Assembly: GCA_903838415.1 (NCBI GenBank)
Contig: CAILYI010000149.1
Location: 1-57,707 of the forward strand
Direction of reading: 5' to 3'
Origin: an uncultured Anaerolineae bacterium
GTDB lineage: Bacteria; Chloroflexota; Anaerolineae; Anaerolineales; Villigracilaceae
Length of the DNA: 57,707 nt
Shown: positions 3,610 to 7,178 of the stretch, piece by piece
Layout of the letters: each line of letters opens with the position of its first letter
Numbering within the stretch: position 1 is the stretch's first letter
Position numbers and translations under genes: made by a program
Notes under the pieces: model-generated
What the model was told of the DNA's origin: nothing
Database searches by the model: none
Seen by the model: the letters and a program-made list of their open reading frames with translations, nothing else

Positions 3610-4176
3610 ATGAAAGATACCCGGTTCGAAATTCGCGTTGCAGGCTTCGGTGGTCAAGGAGTAGTGACCATAGGCAGGGTTCTGGGGGTTGCTTTTACAA
3701 TCCATGAGGGCATTAACTCGGTCAATACGCGTTCCTATGGCCCTGAATCGAGGGGTGGGGCTTGCCGGTCTGAAGTTGTGGCTTCCCAGGGTGAAATCCA
3801 TTATCCGAGCGTGCGCAAAGCGGATGTTTTGGTGGCTTTGTCGCAGCCCGCTTTGGATAAATACAAAGCGGATATGAAAGAGGGTGGGGTATTGCTCGTT
3901 GACCCCAATTCAGTGAAGGATATTCCGAAACATGTGGCCTGCCATGCGGTGCCAGCCATGGAGATTGCCCTTGCTGTGGGCAGTCTGAAATACCAGAATT
4001 CGGTGGTGCTGGGAGCGCTGGCCGCGCTTTTGAAATCGATGCTTAAAAAGGAATCGCTGAAATCGGCTGTAACTGAAAACGTCCCGCCCAAAACCATCGA
4101 GAAGAATCTGGAAGCCTTTGAAAAAGGCTGGGAGTACCTGGTTGCAGAGATGTCGAATGAAAATCCTGCGGGATAA
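3610..4176 (+). CDS. 2-oxoacid:ferredoxin oxidoreductase, gamma subunit
   Basis: A 188-residue gamma subunit of the pyruvate/2-ketoglutarate/2-ketoisovalerate ferredoxin oxidoreductase family. The motifs VAGFGGQGVVTIGRVLG (about 9-25) and the RSYGPESRGGACRSEV block (about 41-56) are typical. With the alpha, beta and ferredoxin subunits downstream it would form the four-subunit enzyme that oxidatively decarboxylates a 2-oxoacid to acyl-CoA, CO2 and reduced ferredoxin. The gene order is unusual because the MerB-like gene separates gamma from alpha. Confidence 0.92.
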   Translation: MKDTRFEIRVAGFGGQGVVTIGRVLGVAFTIHEGINSVNTRSYGPESRGGACRSEVVASQGEIHYPSVRKADVLVALSQPALDKYKADMKEGGVLLVDPNSVKDIPKHVACHAVPAMEIALAVGSLKYQNSVVLGALAALLKSMLKKESLKSAVTENVPPKTIEKNLEAFEKGWEYLVAEMSNENPAG

Positions 4177-4231: not shown

Positions 4232-4918
4232 ATGGGAACAATCATCTCTGAATTTGACTTACAAGTTCGTTACCAGATCTATCATTTTTTTGTTAATCAT
4301 TGCGTTGCGCCTTCTTATCAGCAAATTGCCAATTCGCTCAATGCAGAAAATGAAAATGTGCGAGTTTCCTTTCATAAACTGCATGAGCGACATATGATTT
4401 TCTTAGAACGCAACAGTGATTCTATTCGCATGGCAAACCCTTTTTCGGCAATACCAACGAAATTCAAGGTAATCTCTGGGAATAAGCAATGGTGGGCAAA
4501 TTGCGCTTGGGATTCTTTAGGTATCGCCGCCGCCCTGAAAATTGACGTGCAAATAAAAGCCAGTTATCCCGATACACAAGAAACCGTGGATTTACAGGTA
4601 AATGATGGAATCGTAGACGGGAAAAAACATATTGTTTATTTCCCCTTACCGTGCAGCCAATGGTACGATGACTTGATTTTTACCTGAGCAAATATTTTGC
4701 TCTTTCGGTCGAAAGAACATGCTGAAACTTGGTGCGGTCAAATGCAAATGCCTGTTGGCGAATTATTATCCTTTGAACAAGTTTGGAAACTTTCTGAATT
4801 ATGGTATCAAGACCGTCTTTTGCCTGAATTTAAAGGACGCTCAATCGCAGAAGCGCACGAAATATTTGAAAAACTTGGTTTGAATACAGGTTTTTGGCGG
4901 TTTGATAGTTCAAGTTAA
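4232..4918 (+). CDS. MerB-like organometallic lyase with probable selenocysteine (TGA at 4685-4687)
   Basis: One continuous frame of 228 residues if TGA at 4685-4687 is read as selenocysteine 152; otherwise a 151-residue fragment. The N-terminal 65 residues look like a winged helix, as in MerB. WANCAWDSLG (about 88-97) keeps the catalytic Cys91 and Asp94, matching MerB Cys96 and Asp99. The TGA falls in IFT-TGA-ANILLFRS, aligning with the second catalytic cysteine of MerB (Cys159). The frame continues without a break through a conserved C-terminus (LFRSKEHAETWC, about 157-168). A hairpin with a GGTC loop follows at SECIS distance. MerB cleaves carbon-mercury bonds; here the substrate is unknown. 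Base composition is visibly A/T-richer than the flanking oxidoreductase genes, suggesting transfer. The ribosome site is weak. The alternative is a recent nonsense mutation. Confidence 0.8.
4701..4716 (+). promoter_or_regulatory. Putative bacterial SECIS hairpin
   Basis: TCTTTC-GGTC-GAAAGA forms a perfect 6-bp stem (7 if the inner G-C pair is counted) with a GGTC apex at 4707-4710. The first apical G is 20 bases after the TGA; in the E. coli fdhF SECIS, as I remember it, the GGUC apex starts at base 19. SelB recognises such a loop in known cases. A competing hairpin, GAGCAAA-TAT-TTTGCTC (4686-4702), shares two bases with this stem and covers part of the TGA. Confidence 0.7.
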
Positions 4919-4961
4919 AAATGCGGCTCTCGTAAAATGCACCGAACAAAAGGATAAGTTA

Positions 4962-6155
4962 ATGGATGAAGTTGAAAAAAAATCCCCCGCTGACCTGTCT
5001 CGCCCTACCATCAAGGCTGGCAGGCATTACCTTGAAGGCAGCGAAGCCTGTGTCGAAGGAGCACTGCTGGCAGGTCTGAAAGTCTATGCGGGATACCCCA
5101 TCTCGCCCGCTTCAGAAATCATGGAACATGCAGCCCGACGACTTCCGCAGTTTGGCGGGCGCTTCATCCAAATGGAGGATGAAATCGCCGCTGTTTGCAC
5201 CCTGATTGGCGCTTCCTGGGCCGGCGCAAAAGCGATGACGGCGACTTCCAGCCCGGGTTTTTCGCTGATGCAGGAAGCCATCAGTTTTTCGATCATGACC
5301 GAGACGCCGCTGGTGATTGTCGATGTCCAACGACCGGGGCCCGGGCAGGGATATATCACCACCAGCCAGGAAGATGTGATGCAGGCCCGCTACGGACATC
5401 ACGGAGAGGCGCCCATCATCGCCCTGTCTCCCAGCTCGGTGCAGGATATGTTTGATCTGACCATTGAGGCTTTTAACCTGTCTGAAAAATGGCGAACTCC
5501 CGTCTTGATCATGGCTGAAGAAACCGTGGCGCATATGCGTGAGCAACTGATTGTGCCTGATTTGGAGACGATTGAACTTGTCGGGCGGAAAAAGCCCCAG
5601 GACCTGGGCATTTCCCCGGAAGCCTATCTCCCTTATGGACACGATATCGTGCCTCCGTTGGCGAATTTCGGGGAAGGGTACAACATCAACCACGTCTCCC
5701 TGGCGCACAGCGAAGATGGGGGTGTTGGCAACTACTCTCTAAAGGTTCACAGGGAAAATATTGAACGGCTCCATCAAAAAATTGAAGGAAATGTGAACGA
5801 AATTGCCCGGGTCGAAGCCCTGTTCCTGGATGATTGCGAGCATGTGCTGATCTGTTATGGTTCTGTGGCCCGAACCGGACTGGAAGCCGTAAATGAAGTC
5901 CGCGAGGTTCATGGCATTAAGGTAGGATTTATCCGCCTGGTGACTTTGTGGCCCTTCCCGGAAGAAAAATTGCGGAACCTGATTTCAAGGGTAAAGACTG
6001 TTTTTGTTCCCGAGATGAACCTTGGGATGATGAAACACCCCATCACCGCAGCCCTGCGGGATAAATGCGATCAGGTTATCTCCATTCCCGAAATCGGAGC
6101 CTTGCACACCCCCGAAAAGCTGGTTGAAAAAATCTTGGAGATGGCAAAATGCTAA
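4962..6155 (+). CDS. 2-oxoacid:ferredoxin oxidoreductase, alpha subunit
   Basis: A 397-residue alpha subunit carrying the pyrimidine-binding and C-terminal domains of the thiamine-diphosphate enzyme. The block VYAGYPISPASEIMEH (about 42-57) and the RPGPGQGYITTSQEDVMQARYG region (about 124-145) are typical of 2-ketoacid oxidoreductase alpha subunits. The start at 4962 is preferred because AAAGG lies about nine bases upstream; an upstream in-frame start would overlap the end of the MerB-like gene. It overlaps the beta subunit gene by seven bases. The substrate class (2-oxoglutarate, branched 2-oxoacid or pyruvate) cannot be fixed from sequence alone; the neighbouring dehydrogenase favours a branched-chain 2-oxoacid. 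Confidence 0.93.
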   Translation: MDEVEKKSPADLSRPTIKAGRHYLEGSEACVEGALLAGLKVYAGYPISPASEIMEHAARRLPQFGGRFIQMEDEIAAVCTLIGASWAGAKAMTATSSPGFSLMQEAISFSIMTETPLVIVDVQRPGPGQGYITTSQEDVMQARYGHHGEAPIIALSPSSVQDMFDLTIEAFNLSEKWRTPVLIMAEETVAHMREQLIVPDLETIELVGRKKPQDLGISPEAYLPYGHDIVPPLANFGEGYNINHVSLAHSEDGGVGNYSLKVHRENIERLHQKIEGNVNEIARVEALFLDDCEHVLICYGSVARTGLEAVNEVREVHGIKVGFIRLVTLWPFPEEKLRNLISRVKTVFVPEMNLGMMKHPITAALRDKCDQVISIPEIGALHTPEKLVEKILEMAKC

Positions 6156-6973
6156 AGCACCCGATGCTCAAATATGTCAAAGAAGAGGGCCCCTCTGGGA
6201 TGCGATTTCCGCATATCCTGTGCCCAGGCTGCGGGGCGGGCCAGGTGCTCAACTATACATTGCACGCTGTCGATGACCTGATCAATCAAACCGGGGCGAA
6301 AAAAGATGATTTTGTGTTCATCTCCGGGGTTGGTTGTTCGTCGCGACTCACCAGTCATTATCTGGATTTTGATTCCGGCTGGACGCTGCACGGTCGGGCG
6401 CTCCCAATTGCAACCGGCGCACTCCTGGCGAATCCTGATCTGAAGATTATCATTTTCACTGGAGATGGTGACGCCGCGGCGATTGGCGGGAACCATTTCA
6501 TTCATGCTTTTCGCAGGAATATCGATGTTACGGTAATATGCGTGAACAACGGTTTGTATGGCATGACCGGGGGCCAGGTTGCCCCAACCACTTTGCCATT
6601 TGCAAACACCCCCACCACACCGTATGGCAATATTGAAGATGCCTTTGACCTATGCAAGTTGGCTGAGGTGGCTGGTGCCTCCTACGTCAGCAGGTGGATA
6701 ACCGCCCAGCCGATTCAGATCATTAAAGCGATCAAGAAGGGTCTCGCTAACAACGGCGCATCGTTTATCGAAATCCTGTCCCAGTGCCCGGTTCATGAAC
6801 ACGAAACTCCCGTGGCATCGATGAATGCTCTGAAGGAGCTAACGGTACCTGTCAAGCAGGCGATGGGTAGCGACAAAATCCCGGTTGGCGAACTTCATTT
6901 CGCGCCGCGTCCCACCTGGACTGAAAAATATGAGGCTGTCATTGAGCAAGCAATGAGGCAAGCTCATGATTGA
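6149..6973 (+). CDS. 2-oxoacid:ferredoxin oxidoreductase, beta subunit
   Basis: A 274-residue thiamine-diphosphate-binding beta subunit. CPGCGAGQ (about 24-31) supplies cluster/cofactor cysteines, GDGDAAAIGGNH (about 108-119) is the diphosphate-Mg motif, and NNGLYGMTGGQVAPTT (about 133-148) completes it. At 274 residues it has the usual length of the short beta subunit. It overlaps the alpha gene upstream and the ferredoxin gene downstream by a few bases, so all are translated together. Confidence 0.94.
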   Translation: MLKHPMLKYVKEEGPSGMRFPHILCPGCGAGQVLNYTLHAVDDLINQTGAKKDDFVFISGVGCSSRLTSHYLDFDSGWTLHGRALPIATGALLANPDLKIIIFTGDGDAAAIGGNHFIHAFRRNIDVTVICVNNGLYGMTGGQVAPTTLPFANTPTTPYGNIEDAFDLCKLAEVAGASYVSRWITAQPIQIIKAIKKGLANNGASFIEILSQCPVHEHETPVASMNALKELTVPVKQAMGSDKIPVGELHFAPRPTWTEKYEAVIEQAMRQAHD

Positions 6974-7178
6974 AATTGTCATTAATTCGAATTATTGTAA
7001 AGGTTGCAGTATCTGCATCGACTTTTGCCCCAGGGATGTTTTGCAACCGTCGAAAGAAATTAATGCGAAAGGATATACTCTGCCTGAGGTCGTCAACATC
7101 GAGGCCTGTACCCAATGTCAATTGTGTGAAATCGTATGCCCCGACCTGGCGATTGCGGTAACGCCCAAAAACAAATAG
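6966..7178 (+). CDS. 2-oxoacid:ferredoxin oxidoreductase, delta (ferredoxin) subunit
   Basis: A 70-residue protein with two CxxCxxCxxxC-type [4Fe-4S] motifs: CKGCSICIDFCP (about 11-22) and CTQCQLCEIVCP (about 48-59). It would carry electrons from the beta subunit to free ferredoxin. It overlaps the beta subunit gene by eight bases. Confidence 0.93.
   Translation: MIEIVINSNYCKGCSICIDFCPRDVLQPSKEINAKGYTLPEVVNIEACTQCQLCEIVCPDLAIAVTPKNK

Follow-up and report, generated by a model that had tools for sequence, protein, structure and literature searches.

MerB is the bacterial enzyme known for breaking methylmercury. A 57,707-nucleotide contig from an uncultured Anaerolineae bacterium (CAILYI010000149.1, assembly GCA_903838415.1, family Villigracilaceae; analysed at full length and called the window here) carries a MerB-family gene of 228 codons plus a TAA stop on the forward strand (4232..4918), with one in-frame TGA. 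It is a predicted selenoprotein gene. Judged from its sequence and those of its relatives, the TGA is likely read as selenocysteine (Sec). The product would then be an enzyme of 228 residues, probably a carbon-metal lyase with a Cys91-Asp94-Sec152 site; we put the chance of this at about three in four. The observations behind this reading are the frame; the alignment column in which the TGA falls; a hairpin that follows the TGA and recurs with it in five phyla; frozen codons at the hairpin apex; selection on the protein past the TGA; and genes for Sec machinery. From these we infer Sec insertion at codon 152, a selenium-containing product, and lyase activity.

A first-pass annotation of the window had proposed such a gene: two halves of one MerB-like frame, parted only by a TGA, with Sec at the Cys159 position. 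As a prediction, this holds up. The frame contains a single internal stop, TGA 4685..4687 (forward strand, residue 152), and the Pfam MerB match (PF03243, E 1.8e-26) spans residues 71-193, covering both flanks of it. When the family profile is aligned with solved MerB chains, Cys91 (4502..4504), Asp94 (4511..4513; both forward strand), and residue 152 coincide with MerB Cys96, Asp99, and Cys159, just as annotated. The protein is modelled with the MerB fold, including the winged-helix N-terminal part, and whole-protein matches are all to MerB. The fold, the winged-helix part, the Cys96 column, and the overall length are shared with MerB broadly (including MerB2, PDB 5c17); Asp at the Asp99 column is shared with MerB proper, whereas MerB2 5c17 has Ser there. 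Published MerB signatures are Cys96, Asp99, Cys159, and Cys117, variants lacking the last being termed 117alt (PMC8261052). The window copy has the first two, but unlike MerB it carries the TGA, the predicted Sec codon, in place of Cys159, and it has no Cys117. A change of genetic code is rejected, because TGA is the plain stop of 12 of the 33 long open reading frames (ORFs) in the window.

Behind the TGA lies a hairpin of the bacterial Sec insertion sequence (bSECIS) type (4701..4716, forward strand): a stem (4701-4706 paired with 4711-4716) closed by the loop GGTC (4707-4710). The stem begins 13 nucleotides after the TGA, where the first-pass annotation had placed it, and the loop begins after 19. 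Published bSECIS rules call for a loop of 3-9 nucleotides; a stem of 4-16 bp; 16-37 nucleotides from TGA to loop; a G within the first two loop positions; and a free energy of -7.5 kcal/mol or lower (PMC13188914). The window hairpin agrees in its loop (GGUC), its 6-bp stem, its 19-nucleotide spacing, and the position of its G. Among the 2008 TGA triplets in the window (both strands), 52 are followed by some 6-bp hairpin that satisfies the loop and spacing rules; one has a [GA]GTC loop at the same spacing with five Watson-Crick pairs, and it is taken to be the gene's own. (A scan of 4500-5000 against Rfam matched no family. Rfam is not known to us to include a family for bacterial hairpins of this type, so the null result is not counted as evidence against the hairpin.)

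Recurrence across loci is a stronger test than any estimate of chance within the window. A scan of named genome contigs found 56 loci, and 36 of 400 Chloroflexota genomes contain a match. Among 86 aligned rows, column 152 is TGA in 73 and Cys in 13. Removing three duplicates (L018, L020, L029) and an alignment artefact at an ORF end (L043) leaves 69 distinct TGA loci. (Codons were counted in 66 loci, omitting the fragments L037 and L102 and the divergent L038; the DNA alignment omits L038.) According to record titles, the Sec form occurs in five phyla: Chloroflexota, Actinomycetota (mostly Acidimicrobiia), Gemmatimonadota, Acidobacteriota, and Planctomycetota. Acidobacteriota and Planctomycetota are each represented by a single Sec-form contig, and most records, across phyla, are metagenome-assembled. 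Cys91 and Asp94 are both retained in 66 of the 69 loci, the others being two fragments and L038, which belongs to a clade with two TGAs. Thr immediately precedes the Sec codon in 65 of 66 loci.

The hairpin recurs along with the TGA. A [GA]GTC apex (GGTC or AGTC) is found at identical spacing in 72 of 72 TGA rows, duplicates included. All six stem pairs form in 63 of the 69 distinct loci, and five in the remaining six. Across the 68 aligned rows, 98.5% of stem cells are paired, and 15 are changed on both sides; the covariation score of 0.179 was reached by none of 500 shuffles (which ignore relatedness). Pairing falls to 47-70% when the stem partner is slid, and RNAalifold recovers five of the six pairs. 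The apex codons are invariant: Ser160 is TCG in 66 of 66, Arg159 is CGG in 48 of 48, and Gln159 is CAG in 18 of 18. At the 21 other conserved residues listed, codon entropy is 1.1-2.3 bits.

Protein databases contain the same gene cut short. Among the 120 relatives listed (200 in all), 118 end one residue before column 152; the other two, P0096 and P0114, diverge before that column. A search with an acidobacterial member gave 1862 relatives. Among the 120 listed, 117 end in Thr and three in Ser or Phe, and none exceeds 173 residues, though about 262 were allowed. Such entries reveal a stop but not which stop, the codon having been read only in the loci. The window's own 151-residue form is present on 48 contigs. 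(P0114 itself matches the window gene to about residue 95 and then has another tail, on a 20.7-kb contig; perhaps it is an interrupted strain gene.) Fifteen pattern matches on viral contigs included none encoding a relative.

Relatives with Cys at column 152 are no closer than 25-31% identity. Six of the 13 Cys rows are nearer forms (L033-L036, L092, L093). The apex is absent from all six, and five of them keep only 0-3 of the six stem pairs. The four nearer Chloroflexota Cys forms come from genomes without strong selB (best matches E 2.2e-57 or weaker), but the tRNA-Sec matches in these genomes score 47.1-55.6 bits, all at or above the gathering score of 47. The two Acidobacteriota Cys forms, L092 and L093, also carry Cys at the Asp99 column. 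Loss of selB as the general rule behind the Cys form is rejected, since it fails for both of these Acidobacteriota members. The tree has long branches, and no direction of Sec/Cys change is drawn from it.

Purifying selection on the protein continues after the TGA. In 15 pairs of relatives with upstream dN below 0.3, dN/dS past the TGA is 0.07-0.52 (these are 15 of the 25 pairs listed, from 261 in all, and are not mutually independent). For the window gene and its closest relative, L047, dN/dS is 0.10 after the TGA and 0.12 before it. The 10 other pairs, with dN above 0.5 and dN/dS of 0.32-1.12 after the TGA, were set aside; distant pairs are saturated.

The genes for Sec insertion are at hand. 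A search of the window's genome, as the first-pass annotation had advised, found selA, selB, selD, and selC (tRNA-Sec, anticodon TCA). Encoding a selD with its own in-frame TGA is common among Sec-decoding bacteria, and the selD of this genome (G000:C261:29621-30556) has one. (ARAGORN found no tRNA in the window itself.) Thirty-two of the 56 loci led to 32 genomes, 30 of them with a Sec form; selB exceeds the cut-off in 27 of those 30. Sixteen TGA-form genomes from the Chloroflexota sample, excluding the window's own and G137, give selB at E 6.5e-77 or better in 15, with G246 at 2.2e-53. Two of the sixteen, G092 and G246, apparently duplicate genomes included above through L050 and L088, their sequences being identical. 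The background is high: 307 of the 400 sampled Chloroflexota genomes have selB over the cut-off. (Oscillochloris sp. ZM17-4, L103, has tRNA-Sec and a Sec-form merB, but its best selB match falls within an open stretch of only 162 residues; this is either a broken gene or an assembly error.)

Several observations weigh against our interpretation. The window hairpin alone folds at -5.6 kcal/mol, weaker than the -7.5 rule, and needs the contribution of an adjacent helix to reach -7.7. Although 66 of the 69 loci attain -7.5, they do so by a lenient measure that takes the best of many stretches and includes adjacent helices. Shuffled sequences fold as well as the window hairpin in 13 of 200 cases, and longer stretches prefer a competing hairpin that takes in part of the TGA. 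Two of five covariation measures are no better than shuffles, which ignore relatedness: two pairs are changed on both sides, a number reached by 129 of 500 shuffles, and there are five further pair types, reached by 497 of 500. One Cys form, L092, keeps five of the six stem pairs, with another loop. It and L093 reside in selB-bearing genomes, so the Cys form does not everywhere track selB loss. Conversely, three Sec-form genomes (L082, L088, L095) have no selB over the cut-off, though their tRNA-Sec matches are strong. Contamination of the window's assembly is 8.63%, and machinery on other contigs could therefore be foreign in part. MerB Cys117 is replaced by Tyr112 in the window protein; Cys stands there in 33 of 66 Sec loci. 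Finally, no mer gene was recognised among 30 Pfam-scanned neighbours (five without a match), a further difference from MerB; within that search, which covered neighbouring genes and not merA elsewhere in the genome, no route for disposing of the metal after release is evident.

The proposed reaction follows that of MerB. SelB and tRNA-Sec would deliver Sec at TGA 152, and Cys91 and Sec152 would then hold the metal. In MerB the proton goes to the leaving carbon; here Asp94 would donate it, and cell thiols would afterwards take the metal away. A selenolate is ionised at lower pH than a thiolate and is softer. Sec at the 159 position would provide a nucleophile ionised at neutral pH, with tighter binding of soft metals. 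This would help the enzyme to trap methylmercury, or a soft organometal like it, at trace levels, at the expected price of slower product release. For MerB itself, Cys96, Cys159, and Asp99 are described as holding the metal, with proton transfers through Asp99 and Cys159 and displacement of the metal by incoming thiols (PMC4525700). The gene probably acts on its own in scavenging or detoxification and passes from genome to genome, outside both the mer operon and the operon of the selenocysteine-assisted organometal (SAO) system.

The chief rival keeps Sec and the MerB fold but gives up the lyase: the protein would bind or sense metal, or perform Cys/Sec redox chemistry, with its winged-helix N-terminus on DNA. 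Residues ~3-68 do resemble winged-helix regulators. However, MerB has this same N-terminal part, and every whole-protein match is to MerB rather than to a regulator; moreover, joint retention of Cys91 and Asp94 in nearly all Sec loci is what one would expect if Asp94 acts like MerB Asp99 (PMC4525700). A Sec protein of this fold without lyase activity thus appears unlikely.

The first-pass annotation also pointed to a Sec-containing MerB-like protein, SaoL, from the proposed SAO system. Such a protein is in print, listed as SaoL with the motif CU (PMC13188914) and as 'alkylmercury lyase MerB-like protein' (PMC9312934). Both it and the window protein are MerB-related and contain Sec, by prediction in the present case, and the SaoL model (NF040728) is the best NCBIfam match of the window protein. 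Even so, that match scores 47.6 bits against an equivalog cut-off of 140; nine of ten diverse members match the model, none above 54.9 bits. The preceding residue differs as well, Thr here and Cys in the CU motif. (The comparison uses the model score and the published motif; the 159-column model would, by inference, end near the Sec column of the present group.) SaoB, the one Sao partner sought across the window's genome (a search that did not extend to SaoC, SaoX, SaoP, or SaoT), was not found, though the positive control was silent, and no sao gene was recognised among the 30 Pfam-scanned neighbours, where Pfam may not tell Sao proteins apart. Membership in SaoL is rejected on the score, as quite improbable. 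The NCBIfam MerB models score lower still, at 32.4 bits (cut-off 193) and 25.5 bits (cut-off 200), and no NCBIfam 20.0 model exceeded its cut-off in any of 11 members scanned.

Least credible of all is a plain stop, in a decayed gene, a misread one, or one for a 151-residue protein: TGA does end other ORFs in the window and database entries do stop at this column, but recurrence of TGA and hairpin in 69 loci, the frozen apex and kept pairing, Cys forms that read through the column, selection past the TGA, and 48 contigs with the same form lead us to reject it, and the contrary signs named by the first-pass annotation (absence of selB or selC, Cys in all close relatives, a read error) were not encountered.

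In a second group of genes, TGA falls at the Cys96 column as well as at the Cys159 column. There are three such paralogues in G137 (contigs C176, C274, and C143; loci L106, L127, and L128) and one gene in G356 (L105). A fifth gene, in G097 (L104), has Cys at the Cys96 column and TGA at the Cys159 column, so that four of the five genes read have TGA at the former. Glu occupies the Asp99 column in four of the five (Asp in L127), and all five have a CLDC motif. The same FRSEE hairpin lies behind the second TGA. Behind the first TGA, all four double-TGA genes have a GCTGGC-N5-GCTGGC stem with two G-U pairs. This is a candidate SECIS only. The Cys-bearing G097 gene has the stem too, which could therefore be a relic or simply reflect the protein sequence encoded there.

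The 90 residues before the first TGA, used as query, matched 318 database proteins. Among the 120 listed, the Cys96 column is the exact end of 93 (a Geomonas sp. RF6 protein among them), whereas 25 have Cys there. Most of the latter, 20 of 25, have a length of 154-156 residues and so end about where the second TGA would fall. Sec and Cys thus seem interchangeable at both positions that hold the metal, judged for the database entries by where the proteins end and not by codon. (One other locus, L049:8430-8480, has an extra TGA at the Cys168 column, NGW-TGA-QA, 16 codons past the Sec codon; many relatives have Cys168.)

Taken broadly, the MerB superfamily may include a large unrecognised selenoenzyme radiation: the Sec159 group in five phyla, together with a group in which Sec at both positions presents two selenolates to the metal, acting as stand-alone lyases for trace methylmercury or another soft organometal and missed in counts of demethylators. 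We regard this proposal as evenly balanced. Many MerB-family proteins are stored cut before their second metal ligand, and so look inactive or would fail a screen. The published MerB census screens for Cys159 and, in the portion available, names only variants at 99 and 117 (PMC8261052); proteins that stop at the TGA necessarily fail it. Should these genes encode selenoenzymes, bacterial demethylators have been undercounted. They would also offer a natural comparison of Cys with Sec, and even Sec-Sec, at a mercury site, through which the part that selenium plays in mercury chemistry could be tested directly in an enzyme.

Sec in a MerB relative is already known, as SaoL. The stand-alone group and the double-TGA clade are apparently undescribed: no description of either was found in the open literature searched, which did not include the original SaoL papers (Haft 2023, 2025). 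By term look-up in the accessible text, PMC5029168 and PMC12013277 contain no mention, and PMC2398784 mentions mercuric transport proteins only.

In the window, the gene is situated within a 2-oxoacid oxidoreductase operon, as annotated. Upstream is the gene for a 2-oxoacid:acceptor oxidoreductase gamma-type subunit (Pfam POR; 3610..4176). Downstream are those for the alpha-type subunit (POR_N; 4902..6155, start codon not settled), the thiamine pyrophosphate (TPP)-binding beta-type subunit (6149..6973), and a 4Fe-4S ferredoxin-type subunit (6966..7178), all on the forward strand; a GntR regulator is also encoded upstream. The two immediate neighbours are likely bystanders. The merB-like gene has a GC content of 39.6%, versus 51.8-52.7% in the three larger oxidoreductase genes (43.3% in the ferredoxin gene), and a third-position GC (GC3) of 35.5% versus 55-58% in the larger genes. 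L047 has a DinB-like neighbour, not oxidoreductase genes. Low GC and this differing neighbourhood suggest that the window gene arrived recently in the operon. The remark that transporter genes are missing beside it holds for the adjoining window genes.

Neighbours elsewhere are varied. The 30 in the Pfam scan, drawn from several loci including the window, are part of 696 ORFs listed around the loci. An MFS protein adjoins L086, and a TerB-domain protein is encoded near L075. Recurrent neighbours in the close Anaerolineales clade, among them HMG-CoA reductase, an ACP-synthase-III-like protein, thiolase, a GAF histidine kinase, and DnaA, are taken as clade synteny.
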